Virus record (IMG/VR): IMGVR_UViG_3300042549_009633
Span: 1 to 36,072 of that record
Direction: 5' to 3' (one strand)
Length of the DNA: 36,072 nt
Origin: a virus
The position numbers and the translations under genes are program-made. This document shows, piece by piece, positions 16,349 through 35,333 of the stretch; positions within the stretch are counted from its first letter, which is position 1, and each line of letters starts with the position of its first letter. A model generated the notes under the pieces. That model was not told where the DNA came from, made no database searches, and saw only the letters and a list, made by a program, of their open reading frames with translations.

Positions 16349-16663
16349 ATGCGCCACCTGCTCGCCGCCTTCGCTCTCCTCGCCATTGGCTGCGGCCCTG
16401 ACGCCCCCAGCGCCCTCGACGGCACCTGCGGCGACGCCCCATCGGGCCAGCAGTGGATCGCCGCGGAGGGGTGCCGGCTGACCTGCTCTCGCGTCGAGGG
16501 GCGTGGCGTACCGCTGACCTGCCATCCCGACGGGGGCGCTCCGTTCTGCATCGACGAGGGCAACGACACCGCCCACTGCGGTGCTTGCTTCCGCGACTGC
16601 CGCGCCTTCTGCCCGAGCACCACCCGGCCGTCGTGCCGCTGGGCGCTCTGCCGCTGCGACTGA
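16349..16663 (+). CDS. Cysteine-rich lipoprotein moron
   Basis: 104 residues, ATG at 16349. Residues 1-15 (RHLLAAFALLAIGC) are a lipoprotein signal with Cys15 as the lipid site. The mature part has twelve Cys (27, 42, 46, 58, 67, 77, 80, 84, 88, 96, 101, 103), an even number suitable for six disulfides. The block NDTAHCGACFRDC resembles the NCGACGxxC repeats common in myxobacterial surface proteins. It is divergent from the lipoprotein gene 72 bases away. Together they look like an inserted cassette between tail genes, coding for outer-membrane proteins of the lysogen or infected cell. Function unknown. Confidence 0.75.
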   Translation: MRHLLAAFALLAIGCGPDAPSALDGTCGDAPSGQQWIAAEGCRLTCSRVEGRGVPLTCHPDGGAPFCIDEGNDTAHCGACFRDCRAFCPSTTRPSCRWALCRCD

Positions 16664-21172: not shown

Positions 21173-21502
21173 ATGCAGCGCGTCGAATACGCACCCGCGG
21201 CCGTGTCGATCACGACCGCCGCTTCCCCTGTCCTTACCGTCGTTCGCCCCTCGCTCACGGTCATGTCGCTGCTGTCCACGCTCACGAATGTGAGCGGCGG
21301 GAACATCACCGCGCTGACCGTCGCGCGATGCCTCGACGGCATCACCTACGGCCCCGAGCGCAGCGTCACCACGGGCATCCCGCTCGCGGCCGGATCGTCG
21401 CTGGACATCGACATCCTCGATGAGCCCGCCATCGCGTACCGCTTCACCATCACCGCCGCGTCGGCGGGCGTTGCCTCGCTCGTGCTGCGAGGCGTGTCGT
21501 GA
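21173..21502 (+). CDS. Small tail fibre-associated protein
   Basis: 109 residues. The ATG at 21173 follows an AGGAG site by eight bases and a 92-base gap with nothing else recognisable. Strand-rich (SITTAASPVLTVVRPSLTVMSLLSTLTN; SLDIDILDEPAIAYRFTITAASAG), with a fold pattern like a single beta-sandwich domain. It is coupled by GTGA to the fibre gene that follows and may be its partner or an accessory module. Confidence 0.65.
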   Translation: MQRVEYAPAAVSITTAASPVLTVVRPSLTVMSLLSTLTNVSGGNITALTVARCLDGITYGPERSVTTGIPLAAGSSLDIDILDEPAIAYRFTITAASAGVASLVLRGVS

Positions 21503-22356
21503 CCGTCCGCGTCAACGGATCGAGCGGCGGCGGCGGAGACTTCCCCTCGGGCACCGGCATCGTTGAGGTCGCCTCGGGCGTCGCAACGACCCCAGCCCGC
21601 GCGGGCGGCATCGTCGTGCTTGCGGCGCTCGACGCAGTCCTCGGCGGTGACCCGGCAGGCAGCGCGATCATCAGCGACGGCGGCGGCGCGACCACGATCA
21701 CCAGCGCGGACGTGTCGGCGGTGCTGGCGGCGTCCACCGCTGCGGCTGCGCGCTCGGCCCTCTGCGACCGCGCCATCAGCATCCCAGGACTCACCGCCAC
21801 CAACGGCAACGGCACCGCGGTCGCGGCCAGCGGGACGCTCTCCTACGCCAGCGGGCAGACCGGCTTGGTGTACGCGGACTACCCGCGACTCGTGGGCGCG
21901 CACGGCGCGTCGATCTGGGCGTTCGACGCCGCAGTGAGGATTACGATCACGGGGGCGGGGAGCGCCAGCACCGCCGCCTCGCTGGGCATCGGCACGACGG
22001 GCAGTGTGTACAACTCCGTTGTGATGATCCGCCTCTTCGGAGACGGGCAGATCGACGGCCTCGACATCGGCGGCAGCCCCGTGTGGTCGGTCTACACGCC
22101 GGGCACGCTCCCTGTGGACGGCACCGGGTGGCTCCGCGTGCGCGTGCAGGCGGGCGTGATGACGTTCTGGACGGGTGTCGGCGCGAGCTACGCCGCCGCT
22201 GCGTGGACGATTCGATATCGGGCGCTGCTATCGTCGCCGCCGAGTCCTGACACCACCTACCCCTCGCTGGGGCTCGCGCTCTATCAGGCCGTCAATCCGG
22301 GCGCGCCGGGGGTGCAGGCGGTGTACTCCAACCTCACCATCAGGGACCTGCCGTGA
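21499..22356 (+). CDS. Tail fibre / receptor-binding-like protein
   Basis: 285 residues, GTG overlapping the previous stop. A Gly/Ser linker (NGSSGGGGDFPSGTG) precedes a motif GIVEVASGVATTPARAGG, typical of tail-fibre and neck-appendage proteins near the shaft. A helix rich in Ala follows, then a C-terminal beta domain (residues ~115-285) with GTLSYASGQTGLVYADYPRL and TGWLRVRVQAGVMTFWTGVG, which resembles lectin-like sandwich folds. It probably binds the host surface. It is the last structural gene before the lysis region. Confidence 0.7.
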   Translation: MTVRVNGSSGGGGDFPSGTGIVEVASGVATTPARAGGIVVLAALDAVLGGDPAGSAIISDGGGATTITSADVSAVLAASTAAAARSALCDRAISIPGLTATNGNGTAVAASGTLSYASGQTGLVYADYPRLVGAHGASIWAFDAAVRITITGAGSASTAASLGIGTTGSVYNSVVMIRLFGDGQIDGLDIGGSPVWSVYTPGTLPVDGTGWLRVRVQAGVMTFWTGVGASYAAAAWTIRYRALLSSPPSPDTTYPSLGLALYQAVNPGAPGVQAVYSNLTIRDLP

Positions 22357-22469
22357 CCACAGACCGCGACGCCCTCGGCGCTCATGCCGCCGTCTCCATC
22401 GCGTGCATGGTGGACGCGAGCGCCGCTACCGCGTGCCCTGCGTGCCCCGCGCCGTCGAGGCACCAGTGA
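22353..22469 (+). CDS. Micro-gene between fibre and receiver-fusion genes
   Basis: 38 residues. Its GTG overlaps the fibre stop and its TGA is overlapped by the GTG of the next gene, so both junctions are GTGA. The product has a C-terminal CPACP motif (CxxC) but no other recognisable feature. It may be a true small protein or merely a reinitiation spacer that passes ribosomes to the next gene. Confidence 0.4.
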   Translation: MTTDRDALGAHAAVSIACMVDASAATACPACPAPSRHQ

Positions 22470-23068
22470 GCCCGCACCACGCAGCGGCCTCAGCTGTGGC
22501 CGACGACGGCGGCTCCCTCGTCGCCACGCTCGCGGTCGCGTCCTTCGCCGGGCACGTCAGCCAGCTCTTCGCGCTGCTCCCCGGGTGGGCGGGGGGAATC
22601 CTCGGTGGGCTCGTGGTCCACGGGCTCATGCGCCTCGTCGGGCCGACGCTCGACGTGCACGCCCAGCGGGTGAAGGCGCGGCTCTCCCCCGTGCCTCCGC
22701 TCACCCGCACCCGGCGCGTGCTCGTGGTGGACGACCACGAGGCGAGCCGCGTGCTGCTGGCGCTCGCGCTCCGCGAGGCGCTGCCGGGCGTGCACGTCGA
22801 CGAAGCGCGGTCGGGCGCCGAGGCCCGCGGGCTCCACGCGCGCCACCAACACGGCGCGATCGTCGCGGACCTCGTGCTGGGCGACGAGATGGGCGACGCG
22901 CTGCTCCGCGAGATCGGCGGGCCGGGCGACGTGCTCGTGTCGGGCGTCGCCGACGTGCTCGCGCTCGACGCCGCTGCCGCTACCTGCGGGGCGACACCCA
23001 TGCAGAAGCCGCCCACGCCGGAGGCCCTCGTCGCCGCGGTAACGGCGCGGCTCGCCGCTCTCGGCTGA
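22466..23068 (+). CDS. Membrane protein with holin-like segment fused to a CheY-type receiver domain
   Basis: 200 residues. Residues 17-59 are hydrophobic (one or two membrane spans: LVATLAVASFA... and WAGGILGGLVVHGLM). A basic linker (65-84) leads to a receiver domain (84-198). The domain has every key residue: acidic pair Asp89-Asp90 in VLVVDDHE, phosphoacceptor Asp135 in IVADLVLGDE, Ser159 in LVSG, and Lys181 in MQKP. No output domain follows. It sits at the start of the lysis region, where a holin is expected. A plausible reading is a membrane pore or anchor whose assembly responds to phosphorylation by a host histidine kinase. The receiver call is strong; the holin role is inferred. Confidence 0.85.
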   Translation: MSPHHAAASAVADDGGSLVATLAVASFAGHVSQLFALLPGWAGGILGGLVVHGLMRLVGPTLDVHAQRVKARLSPVPPLTRTRRVLVVDDHEASRVLLALALREALPGVHVDEARSGAEARGLHARHQHGAIVADLVLGDEMGDALLREIGGPGDVLVSGVADVLALDAAAATCGATPMQKPPTPEALVAAVTARLAALG

Positions 23069-23123
23069 CCACCTGCGGCGCCCTGCGGGGGTCTGCCGTG
23101 CCTCGCCACATCGGAGACCCTCC

Positions 23124-23894
23124 ATGCAACACGCCCTCGATACGCTGCGCCCGTACTGGCCGCTGCTGATGGCCCTCGTGGGCTACCCCCTCATCACCGC
23201 CGCGCTCAACTGGTGGCTGTGGTGGGACACGCCCGCGCATTGGGACGCCTACGCCGCCGCGCACTCCGGTCGCGCGTTCGCGATCCGCATCCTCCGCGCC
23301 GTCTCGCCGCACCTCCGCAAGGTGGTCGTGGCCTACCGCGACTGGGCCGCGGCCCGTGGCGCGCTGCCTCGCCCGACGCTTGACGCCGTGGCGATCAGGG
23401 CCGACGAGGTGCCGCTACCCCGCCCCGAGGCGCCCGCCCCCGTGAGCCCACTGCGCGCCGTCACGGTGTCGCACCAGCCCCCTCCGCCCGCGTCCGCTGA
23501 CCCGCTGCTCGACGCCGCCCGCGCGAGCGTGCGCGCGGAGCTGGGCGAGCTCATGCCGTCCCCTCCGCCGGCCGACGGAAAGCGCGGCTCCATCGACGTG
23601 CGCTCCATGCTCGTGGTCGTCGTGGCCCTCGCGGTGGCACTGCCCCTCGGGGTCGTGGTCACCGGGTGTCCGCTCGTCCGGGAAGGCGTGCTGCGCGCCG
23701 CCCCCGGTGTCCCCGACCCCAACGACTGCACCCCCGGCGTCCAGCGGTGCGACGGCCTCGTCCCGGTGGTGTGCAGCGCGACCCGTCGCGAGTGGCCCGC
23801 GCTGCCCCGTAGCGCCTCGGGAGAGCAGCGCACCTGCGCCCCCGGCGTGTGCGTTGTGTCGGCCGCGGGCGTGGCCCATTGCGAGGCGCCGTGA
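23124..23894 (+). CDS. Lysis-region membrane protein with C-terminal Cys-rich domain
   Basis: 256 residues; a GGAG site lies seven bases before the ATG. The N-terminus carries one span (PLLMALVGYPLITAALNWWLWW) followed by SGRAFAIRILRAVSPHLRKVV, like small holin-type proteins that precede endolysins. After a proline-rich stretch comes a second span (residues 163-180) ending VVTGC, which could also act as a lipobox if Met162 (base 23607) were an internal start. The C-terminal ~70 residues are Cys-rich (DCTPGVQRCDG, RTCAPGVC, VAHC) in the style of myxobacterial surface proteins. It could be a holin or spanin-like factor; the role is unproven. The next gene overlaps its stop. Confidence 0.7.
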   Translation: MQHALDTLRPYWPLLMALVGYPLITAALNWWLWWDTPAHWDAYAAAHSGRAFAIRILRAVSPHLRKVVVAYRDWAAARGALPRPTLDAVAIRADEVPLPRPEAPAPVSPLRAVTVSHQPPPPASADPLLDAARASVRAELGELMPSPPPADGKRGSIDVRSMLVVVVALAVALPLGVVVTGCPLVREGVLRAAPGVPDPNDCTPGVQRCDGLVPVVCSATRREWPALPRSASGEQRTCAPGVCVVSAAGVAHCEAP

Positions 23895-24553
23895 TCGCCC
23901 TCGACGTCGCGCTCCGCATCATCCGCCGCCGCGCCGCCGCCGCGGGCGTCGAGCTCATCCTCCCCGGCGACCCCCGGCGCGAGGCGATCGTCTCCCTCGT
24001 CGCGCTTGGGCACAGCATCCAGCGTACGGGCGTCCTCCGCGCCCGCGTCGCCGACGGCGTGACGATCACGCTCCCCGGCGTCCCCGGCCCCGCGGCCGCG
24101 CTCCTCGCGCTCATCCCCTACGTCGGTCCCGCGCTCGCGGCGCTGGCGATGGCCAACGGCCGCACCTCCGTCGCCATGTCGCCCGCGGCCCTCGCGACCG
24201 GGGGGCAGGCGCTCGCGACGTGGTGGCACGAGGAGGGCCACGTCGGATCGATCGCCCGTGGTGGGCTGCTGTACTGCGGCGCGTACCTGCTCGCGCCCGA
24301 GGTGCGTGCGGGCGGTGAGGCGCCCTGCTACGGCGCCGGGATCGCCGTGCGTGTGGCCTGCGGGGCGCCCCTCGACGGCGCGGTGCGTGACGCCCTCGAC
24401 TCGCTCGAGGGCTACGGCCTGGACGTCGCCGCGAAGTCACTGGCGAGCGGGATCATCGCGTCGGCCGCGCACACCATCCGCGCGACGGGCGACTACGGCG
24501 GCGTGGTCGCAGAGCTGCGCGCCGAGCTCGCGGCCGAAGGGGTGATCGCGTGA
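23891..24553 (+). CDS. HEEGH zincin-like protein in the lysis region
   Basis: 220 residues from the GTG overlapping the previous stop. Residues 113-117 (HEEGH, in WWHEEGHVGS) fit the HExxH zinc-metalloprotease signature. Glu143, in a GGEAPCYG segment 26 residues later, is a candidate third ligand. A hydrophobic segment (residues 68-88) precedes the motif. Nothing resembles M23 or M15 endolysins. It may be a protease of the host envelope, a virion-associated protease, or an inactive homologue. The motif is visible, but the catalytic role and family are uncertain. It is coupled to the endolysin gene (GTGA). Confidence 0.55.
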   Translation: MIALDVALRIIRRRAAAAGVELILPGDPRREAIVSLVALGHSIQRTGVLRARVADGVTITLPGVPGPAAALLALIPYVGPALAALAMANGRTSVAMSPAALATGGQALATWWHEEGHVGSIARGGLLYCGAYLLAPEVRAGGEAPCYGAGIAVRVACGAPLDGAVRDALDSLEGYGLDVAAKSLASGIIASAAHTIRATGDYGGVVAELRAELAAEGVIA

Positions 24554-25338
24554 GCCTCGACCTCGTCGCGGCGCCCTTCCTCGGCCGCTCGCCGCGCGTC
24601 ACCCGCGCCTTCGGGGCAAAGCTCGCGCGCGTCGAGGCGGCGCTGCACGCCGAGTGGCAGCGGGCGCAGGTCGCGCTCCCCGGTGGCGTCCCCACGCAGA
24701 CCTTCGCGGAGTGGCACGGCGTGACCGGCGTCGGCGGCTATCGCGAGGCCGCGGGCTACCACGGCAAGGGGCGGGCGATCGACATCAACTACAGCCGCAA
24801 CGGCTACGCGGTCTGCGCCACGCACACCGCCCGCGGGCTGGTCTACGGGGGCGAGTCGGCAGGCGCGAAGCTCCCCGGCGTGCGCAAGGCGTTCATCGCC
24901 GCGTGCGGTCGGGCCTGCGCCGCCGCGGGCGTGCTCTGCGACCTCAGCGCCCGGCGCGCGGGCGAGTCCACCGCGAGCGTGTGGGATCGCTGGCACGTCG
25001 TGAGCGAGGCCGTCGTTGCGTACCTGGCGCCCTACTTCCCCGCGGTCGACGACCTCGATGCGGGCGAGGCCGACGTGCTCCCGGGCGTCGAGATCCCCCC
25101 GCAGGTGGCCGCGGACTACGCTGCCCTGCGGGTGCCCCTCGTCGTGGGCCAGCCGGTGGCGCGCCCGCGTCTCACGCGCAACCCCGCCAAGGGGCTGATG
25201 GACCTCCGCCGCGCCGTCGTGGTCGCGCTCTGCGACGTGGGCGGGATGCGGTGGGGCGGCTGCGACTTCGGGGCGTCGAGCAGCGCGGACATCATGCACT
25301 TCGATGACGCCTCCCGCATCGCCAGCGGGGCCGTGTGA
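24550..25338 (+). CDS. Endolysin, M15 (VanY-like) peptidase
   Basis: Zn-dependent peptidase predicted to cut peptidoglycan stem peptides. 262 residues, GTG overlapping the previous stop. GYHGKGRAIDIN (residues 69-80) supplies His71 and Asp78 with the M15 spacing HxxGxAxD. Two later histidines are candidate partners: RWH near residue 146 and DIMHF, with His250, near the C-terminus. No signal peptide is visible, so release probably needs the membrane genes upstream. A Cys-containing insert (CGRACAAAGVLCDL) is unusual. The next gene, a transglycosylase, overlaps the stop. Confidence 0.8.
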   Translation: MSLDLVAAPFLGRSPRVTRAFGAKLARVEAALHAEWQRAQVALPGGVPTQTFAEWHGVTGVGGYREAAGYHGKGRAIDINYSRNGYAVCATHTARGLVYGGESAGAKLPGVRKAFIAACGRACAAAGVLCDLSARRAGESTASVWDRWHVVSEAVVAYLAPYFPAVDDLDAGEADVLPGVEIPPQVAADYAALRVPLVVGQPVARPRLTRNPAKGLMDLRRAVVVALCDVGGMRWGGCDFGASSSADIMHFDDASRIASGAV

Positions 25339-25736
25339 GCCCGGCCGCTGCCCTCGTCGCCGCGCTCGCGCTCTCGTGGCCGGACATCGCCCCGATGCTC
25401 CGCCTCGACGTCGCCGCGAGCGTCACCCGCGCCGCGACCACGCACGGCGTCCCGGTGGCGATCGTCGCGGGCGTCTGCTTCGCGGAGAGCCGCATGGGAA
25501 CGGCGCCGCGCTACGCCTCGCTCTGCGGCACGCGCGTCCACCACGCCTACGTCAACGGCGCGCTGTCCGCGGACATCGCCGCCCGCTCCCTGCGCCGCCG
25601 CCGGGCGGAGTGCGGCTCGTGGCCGCGGGCCCTCGTCGCCTATCGCTGGGGTGCAGGCTGTGGGCGTGCCGACTCGTCGGGCTACGCTCGTGGCGTGCTC
25701 CGCGTCGCCCGTCGCCTGGGGCACGTCGAGCCGTGA
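25335..25736 (+). CDS. Lytic transglycosylase-like muramidase
   Basis: 133 residues, GTG at 25335 overlapping the endolysin stop. The N-terminal hydrophobic stretch (AALVAALALS) could be a signal or signal-anchor. GVPVAIVAGVCFAESRMG places Glu51 in the usual catalytic position of SLT/lysozyme-type enzymes, and ALVAYRWGAGC...SGYARGVL matches the later conserved block (AY..G..... YA..VL). It would cleave the glycan strand, complementing the M15 enzyme. Length is typical of small SLT domains. Confidence 0.75.
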   Translation: MSPAAALVAALALSWPDIAPMLRLDVAASVTRAATTHGVPVAIVAGVCFAESRMGTAPRYASLCGTRVHHAYVNGALSADIAARSLRRRRAECGSWPRALVAYRWGAGCGRADSSGYARGVLRVARRLGHVEP

Positions 25737-34536: not shown

Positions 34537-34830
34537 ATGGAAACCCGACTGAGCCCACGCCAGTTTTTCGAGCTCGCCCTACCCGACGGGCACATGACCG
34601 CCGCGCAGAACGGCACCCTGATCTCGTACTCCACCATTCTCGACGCGAAGCGCGGCAAGCCCTTGCGCGCCGAAACGGCGAAGCGTCTGGAGGCGTGGAG
34701 CCGCAAGGTCGAAGCCGCAAGTGCTCTCGGTGTCGTCATCGGCGCCGCCATTGCCTGCGGGCTGGAGGAAGAGCCGACCACGCTCCCGAAGCGCGTCACC
34801 AAGCACCTCGCGCAGCGGGCGGCAGCGTGA
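34537..34830 (+). CDS. Cro-like HTH regulator
   Basis: 97 residues, ATG at 34537. Residues 20-52 (MTAAQNGTLISYSTILDAKRGKPLRAETAKRLEAW) form a Cro/YdaS-type HTH whose recognition segment SYSTILDAKRG is similar to SGLAYSTLSNWKNG in the repressor, suggesting the same operators. A hydrophobic segment (VVIGAAIACG) and a basic tail follow. It is the first gene of the right early operon and would start lytic growth by shutting down the repressor promoter. The next ATG shares its stop (TGATG). Confidence 0.8.
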   Translation: METRLSPRQFFELALPDGHMTAAQNGTLISYSTILDAKRGKPLRAETAKRLEAWSRKVEAASALGVVIGAAIACGLEEEPTTLPKRVTKHLAQRAAA

Positions 34831-35333
34831 TGCTCCGGGAAGCCGTCGCCATCTACATCGCCCGCGGGCTGGTGTCGGGCCTGCTCAAGATCGGTCGCAC
34901 GCGTGATGTGCCGCAGCGGCTCAAGGGGCTCGCCTCTCGGGTTGAGCCGATGGAGTTGCTGGCCACGATGCGCGCTCCTGCCCGCGTAGAGCGGGAACTT
35001 CATCGGCGGTTCGCAGCCGCCCTGGAACCGTCGCGCGGTCGCGAGTGGTTCCGCGACGACGGTGCTATCCGCGCCTTCCTCGACACGCTCGACGCCGCGC
35101 AGCGCGGATCGGTGGTGTTCACCGCAGGCGAGCGCCGCCCGCAGCGAAGGCTGACCGACGCGGAGCGCGCCGCCAATCGTGCGCGCCCCACGCGACCTCA
35201 GTCCGACGCCGTGCGCGATCGGTACAACGCGACGATGGCCGCGCGCCGCCAGCGCATCGACGCAGCCCGGGTCGCCGACCCGCTGCTCTACCCGCTCGTT
35301 GCCCGCCCGCTCGCCTCGCAGGTGCTCGCGTGA
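34830..35333 (+). CDS. T5orf172/MUG113-like GIY-YIG nuclease-superfamily protein
   Basis: 167 residues, TGATG overlap with the Cro-like gene. AIYIARGLVSGLLKIGRTRDVPQRLKGL and ERELHRRFAA..EPSRGREWFRDD match the core of the T5orf172 family (GIY-YIG fold): a Tyr-containing first strand, KIGRT with Arg, and the Glu/His-containing helix. Homologues are found in phages, next to antirepressor-like genes or as stand-alone nucleases. The C-terminal third is basic and repetitive in Arg. Enzymatic activity is uncertain because the full GIY-YIG signature is altered. Confidence 0.75.
   Translation: MLREAVAIYIARGLVSGLLKIGRTRDVPQRLKGLASRVEPMELLATMRAPARVERELHRRFAAALEPSRGREWFRDDGAIRAFLDTLDAAQRGSVVFTAGERRPQRRLTDAERAANRARPTRPQSDAVRDRYNATMAARRQRIDAARVADPLLYPLVARPLASQVLA

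Follow-up and report, generated by a model that had tools for sequence, protein, structure and literature searches.

The window, by which we mean the whole stretch of DNA analysed, comprises 36,072 bases and is the entire viral record in IMG/VR. Its ends, at positions 1 and 36072, join in frame inside a DnaB-like helicase gene and a terminal repeat is absent; this joining indicates that the genome is complete and circularly permuted. Its genes include those for a terminase, a portal, a major head protein, an integrase, RecT and DnaB, and the virus is therefore a temperate tailed phage. On its + strand, a gene at 22466-23068 sits between the last tail gene, g30 (21499-22356, +), and a + strand lysis cassette. 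It encodes a protein, here P0001, in which a predicted hairpin is followed by a CheY-like receiver domain.

The surroundings of this gene are those of a lysis region. Upstream, g30 closes the tail region and is a probable fibre or adhesin gene, judging from its position and from partial homology in three relatives (L024, L005 and L004). Downstream, g32 (23124-23894, +) has a membrane segment at its N-terminus and a lipoprotein-like C-terminal part, where a second hydrophobic segment carries, near residue 182, a lipobox-like TGC; L005 and L024 encode the two parts in separate genes. A fusion of the spanin or holin type is one possibility, an internal start another. The next gene, g33 (23891-24553, +), is a conserved member of the cassette in L005 and L024 and has a zincin-like HExxH motif (HEEGH; its counterparts in L003 and L004 have HEFQH and HEITH); it is conserved beside the endolysin and gave no family match. 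The latter, g34 (24550-25338, +), is M15-type peptidase-like (PF13539, E=2e-4, below the cut-off), lacks a signal sequence, and has homologues 58-87% identical in L003, L004 and L024. A transglycosylase-like gene follows, g35 (25335-25736, +; weak PHROG match, E=0.058; homologue in L024). The P0001 gene and g34 are thus on the same strand and in the same gene run, about 1.5 kb apart, with g32 and g33 between them.

The reading frame proposed in the initial annotation was recovered at 22466-23068: it starts with GTG at 22466, its stop ends at 23068, and it encodes 200 amino acids. The start shares the sequence GTGA with the stop of a 38-codon mini-ORF (22353-22469, +), and 5 nt upstream of this start lies a Shine-Dalgarno-like GAGG. 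GC content at codon positions 1, 2 and 3 is about 0.88, 0.50 and 0.95, i.e. the coding pattern of the genome exactly in this frame, and third codon positions are the least conserved between the window and its homologue in L003. Codon-position GC, the GTGA start and conservation identify it as a true coding gene; the Pfam match, the modelled structure and the homologues, together with the GC pattern, rule out a chance or wrong-frame ORF, and an overlapping + strand ORF (22384-23169) matched no family. A scan covering sigma-70-type sites showed neither promoter nor terminator in the flanks, so that the gene probably belongs to the late operon. On the same scan we rejected a lysogenic-conversion insert with its own promoter or terminator.

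The receiver occupies residues 84-199 (22715-23062, +). It matches PF00072 (Response_reg) over residues 85-192 with E=4.2e-8 and 33.8 bits, above the curated cut-off of 30.2, and the L003 homologue matches the same family more strongly (49.9 bits, E=1.6e-14). The AlphaFold2 model, built from only three aligned sequences, shows the complete (beta-alpha)5 order over residues 84-199 with pLDDT of about 72-90. Foldseek returned 255 PDB matches to this model at E<=0.001, those listed being response-regulator receivers, and the best phmmer match of the domain among solved structures is CheY2 of Sinorhizobium (PDB 1p6q). All five catalytic residues are present: the acidic pocket Asp89-Asp90 (22730-22735, +), a pair that binds Mg2+ in known receivers; Asp135, the predicted phospho-acceptor (22868-22870, +); Ser159 at the conserved Ser/Thr position (22940-22942, +); and Lys181, followed by Pro (23006-23008, +). 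L003, the one full-length homologue, keeps all of them, and L002 also has the Asp pair. Neither a missing receiver fold nor the loss of the Asp and Lys residues in homologues, both named beforehand as refuting the initial annotation, has occurred. By sequence, fold and active site are intact in both the window and L003 proteins; for the window protein the model shows the same. No output domain follows, as had been claimed: the protein ends one residue past the last receiver helix, and PF00072 is its only Pfam match. The receiver is thus real, a complete, conserved, single-domain response regulator, and this part of the initial annotation stands in full.

The N-terminal part is less clear-cut. 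Hydrophobic spans had been claimed here, and 84% of shuffled versions of the protein reach its best 19-residue hydropathy within residues 1-80 (1.61). An approximate estimate of insertion energy is likewise unfavourable compared with g32 and with the small membrane proteins found in L005 and L024 (see below). What does stand out is a stretch of 41 residues (15-55; 22508-22630, +) free of K, R, D and E, which only 0.7% of shuffles reach and which ranks second in length among the proteins predicted for the window; the L002 homologue has a similar stretch of 39 residues. AlphaFold2 places two helices here with low confidence (residues 4-35 and 40-72), and a conserved PGW (residues 39-41) makes the turn between them. 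Across homologues the motif reads GH...PGW.GG...G.VV...RL..PTL, in which PGW and RL..PTL are invariant. Charge positions mark residues 56-83 (22631-22714, +) as an Arg-rich tail and linker, predicted to be cytoplasmic, with low pLDDT at 69-80. A turn of this kind with an Arg-rich tail behind it is typical for membrane hairpins. The N-terminus is thus likely, though not securely, a membrane hairpin with residues 15-55 as its core, and the claimed hydrophobic spans are marginal.

We found the same architecture beside an endolysin in a second, metagenomic phage, as the initial annotation had proposed to look for. L003, which comes from a 61.7 kb viral record, carries the full hairpin-receiver protein at 48% identity and in the same synteny (tail gene, hairpin-receiver gene, g32 homologue, endolysin); an inserted adenine-methylase-like gene (L003 7129-8010) separates the hairpin-receiver gene there from the homologue of g32. 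A third phage, L002, encodes the hairpin and, up to where its contig ends, the beginning of the receiver. Its hairpin is 53% identical to that of the window at the protein level, and the first 21 residues of its receiver are identical at every base (5205-5270 in L002 against 22709-22774 in the window, 63 bases compared by codon); the two parts are therefore exchangeable separately, and a recombination boundary likely lies between them. L003 is the only full-length homologue known.

Other relatives have something else in this position. L005 and L024 share the cassette, and directly after the tail gene they encode a membrane protein of 71-72 aa without a receiver (L005 9290-9505; L024 5459-5677). 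A profile search found no receiver in the related phages lacking the P0001 gene. The first codons of this slot gene survive as short remnants in the window and in L002: the mini-ORF upstream of P0001 shares its start, MTTDRDALG-HA, with the slot gene of L005 and L024, and at the DNA level the window remnant is 78% identical to L005 over 50 bp and 85% identical to L002 over 41 bp. It appears from these remnants that the receiver protein replaced an ordinary small membrane protein. The two occupants share, besides the slot, a membrane character (probable for P0001) and an Arg-rich part, C-terminal in the small protein, but the small protein has no receiver and AlphaFold2 models it as one long helix, unlike the hairpin of P0001. 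Homology between the hairpin and the slot protein is supported neither by these models nor by hhalign (probability 0.6%). Because homology is undetectable and the models differ, the replacement is evidence for a link with lysis at the level of the slot, short of proof of equal function.

We found no relatives of P0001 among annotated phages; among the matches listed from 84,980 species genomes, only receivers match and the hairpin does not; in Myxococcota genomes the matches to a hairpin profile are weak and scattered within unrelated frames; and P0001 is absent from the stretches fetched from four distant Myxococcota prophages, found by their terminase. Viral scans with the endolysin, g33, g29 and g32 yielded one further cassette, that of L024, without a receiver.

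A histidine-kinase ATPase domain was found neither in the window record nor in four relatives, in a search where the control genomes all matched; the phosphate would therefore come from the host. We tentatively favour a reading, plausible if somewhat short of probable, in which P0001 is a single-domain response regulator tethered to the membrane that occupies a slot for lysis regulators and adjusts the timing of lysis to phosphorylation by the host. The N-terminal helices would insert into the inner membrane as a hairpin whose two ends face the cytoplasm, and Asp135 would receive its phosphate from a small phosphodonor or from a histidine kinase of the host. The phosphorylated receiver could then dimerise, rearrange or bind a partner, which might change how the hairpin assembles or how it contacts g32, the membrane protein next to it, and so set the timing of lysis. 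We lean toward the hairpin being an antiholin-like modulator of g32 rather than a pore-former. In favour of lysis regulation count the receiver above cut-off with its intact active site, the conserved hairpin, the synteny in L003, the slot exchange and the lack of a phage kinase. Against it count the weak hydropathy and low confidence of the hairpin, the lack of a holin family match, the possibly different function of the L005/L024 slot protein, the receiver-less relatives (lysis needs no receiver), the candidacy of g32 as holin, and the single full-length homologue.

Two known systems bear on this mechanism. Lysis timing in mycobacteriophages of cluster F1 is set jointly by LysF1a, which has two TM segments, and LysF1b, which has one, and mutations just after TM2 of LysF1a alter it (PMC13056207). 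EpsW, a single-domain regulator of Myxococcus, interacts when phosphorylated with a membrane enzyme, whose dimerisation it is proposed to promote (PMC12802240). By analogy, both cases show that the ingredients of the proposed mechanism are realistic. The receiver of P0001 resembles EpsW and CheY2 in fold, acidic pocket, phospho-Asp, Ser/Thr, Lys and lack of an output domain, but these are soluble and cell-encoded, whereas the P0001 receiver is attached to what is probably a membrane hairpin and comes from a probable late operon of a phage. With class II holins and pinholins (two-TM, N-in/C-in; S of phage 21; LysF1a, PMC13056207) it shares a predicted two-helix hairpin with a short turn, a basic tail predicted to be cytoplasmic and the location in the lysis region, and as in the LysF1a-LysF1b pair a one-TM-type protein lies downstream. 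However, we found no sequence similarity to them, the helices of P0001 are weakly hydrophobic, its 200 residues include a receiver in place of a short tail, its role in lysis is predicted, and the endolysin of the window is not of the SAR type.

The initial annotation described a holin-like membrane protein fused to a receiver at the head of the lysis region. The receiver, the probable hairpin and the position are borne out, and the architecture recurs in other phages; the holin identity is putative. Searches of Pfam and PHROGs with E values as high as 10 gave P0001 no match to a holin family. Its 200 aa exceed the 68-88 aa of class II holin examples, although the hairpin part alone has about 75. 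Of the class II topology (two TM helices, both ends cytoplasmic), it offers two low-confidence helices and 41 charge-free residues with weak hydropathy. The location in a lysis cassette beside the endolysin agrees, with g34 about 1.5 kb downstream, and is repeated in L003, but g32, an adjacent membrane protein whose position is likewise holin-like, is a holin candidate equally good or better. The label of holin goes beyond the evidence, and we regard as possible but doubtful the wider claim that P0001, as a holin or as the regulator of one, has a two-component receiver built in, so that phosphorylation by a histidine kinase of the host determines the time of lysis.

The main rival, a different role for the same receiver, seems rather unlikely, namely that P0001 is a membrane-anchored decoy or phosphate sink, binding or draining a host hybrid kinase and so altering host behaviour (development, motility, stress response) instead of lysis, from a neutral late-gene slot. 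A single-domain receiver with an intact active site, no output domain and no phage kinase speaks for it, and it needs fewer assumptions about the hairpin. For CheY-like genes that other phages carry in their tail modules an auxiliary role has been proposed (PMC10579305), and viral receivers occur in BFVD. Those of Alteromonas phages V22 (gp30) and A5 (gp11) (PMC10579305) and the phage receivers in BFVD are, like that of P0001, encoded without a partner kinase; those listed differ in being stand-alone or part of a tail-fibre module, none of them matches the hairpin, and the P0001 gene heads a lysis region. A decoy, moreover, requires neither a hairpin with invariant PGW and RL..PTL nor late expression next to the endolysin, and this explanation leaves hairpin conservation and position unaccounted for, as well as the other small membrane protein that relatives carry in its place.

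It is improbable that P0001 is not membrane-bound, its N-terminal helices forming a soluble Gly-rich coil for dimerisation or partner binding that links the receiver to a phage or host protein: hydropathy no higher than in shuffles and low AlphaFold2 confidence would fit, but the long charge-free stretch in both the window and L002 and the PGW turn with its Arg-rich tail are of the membrane-hairpin type. Least probable is a true holin, the strong form of what the initial annotation proposed, with the hairpin making the lethal lesion and the receiver as built-in timer; two predicted helices, an Arg-rich tail, the lysis-region position and an endolysin that needs some holin, having no signal sequence, speak for it, but weak hydrophobicity, the lack of a holin family match, a bulky 117-residue C-terminal domain and the strong membrane protein g32 next to it speak against.

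A host among the Myxococcota had also been suggested. The nearest Myxococcota prophage terminases are 41-48% identical to that of the window, compared with at most 38.5% in cultured phages, Myxococcota being the only phylum searched; such a host is plausible but not established by this comparison. Known cues for lysis timing are membrane energy, for holins, or superinfection, as for RI of T4. If the favoured reading, lysis regulation through the receiver, is true, a lysis-slot membrane protein with a phosphorylatable receiver would connect host two-component signalling directly to lysis, approachable through single-residue alleles, and the moment at which the cell bursts may be under the influence of a signalling kinase of the host. 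In the full-text literature searched, which excludes most subscription papers, we found no description of a holin or holin-like protein with a receiver or CheY domain; the hairpin-receiver anatomy is real and, as far as the collections and papers searched show, undescribed.

Two further genes of the window are worth recording. At 34827-35333 lies a protein with a T5orf172/MUG113 (GIY-YIG-type) domain (E about 6e-9). Inserted among the tail genes is g25 (16349-16663), encoding a small Cys-rich lipoprotein, with a counterpart in L002 (about 1354-1650) that carries a GRCGNVC motif, resembling myxobacterial lipoproteins.
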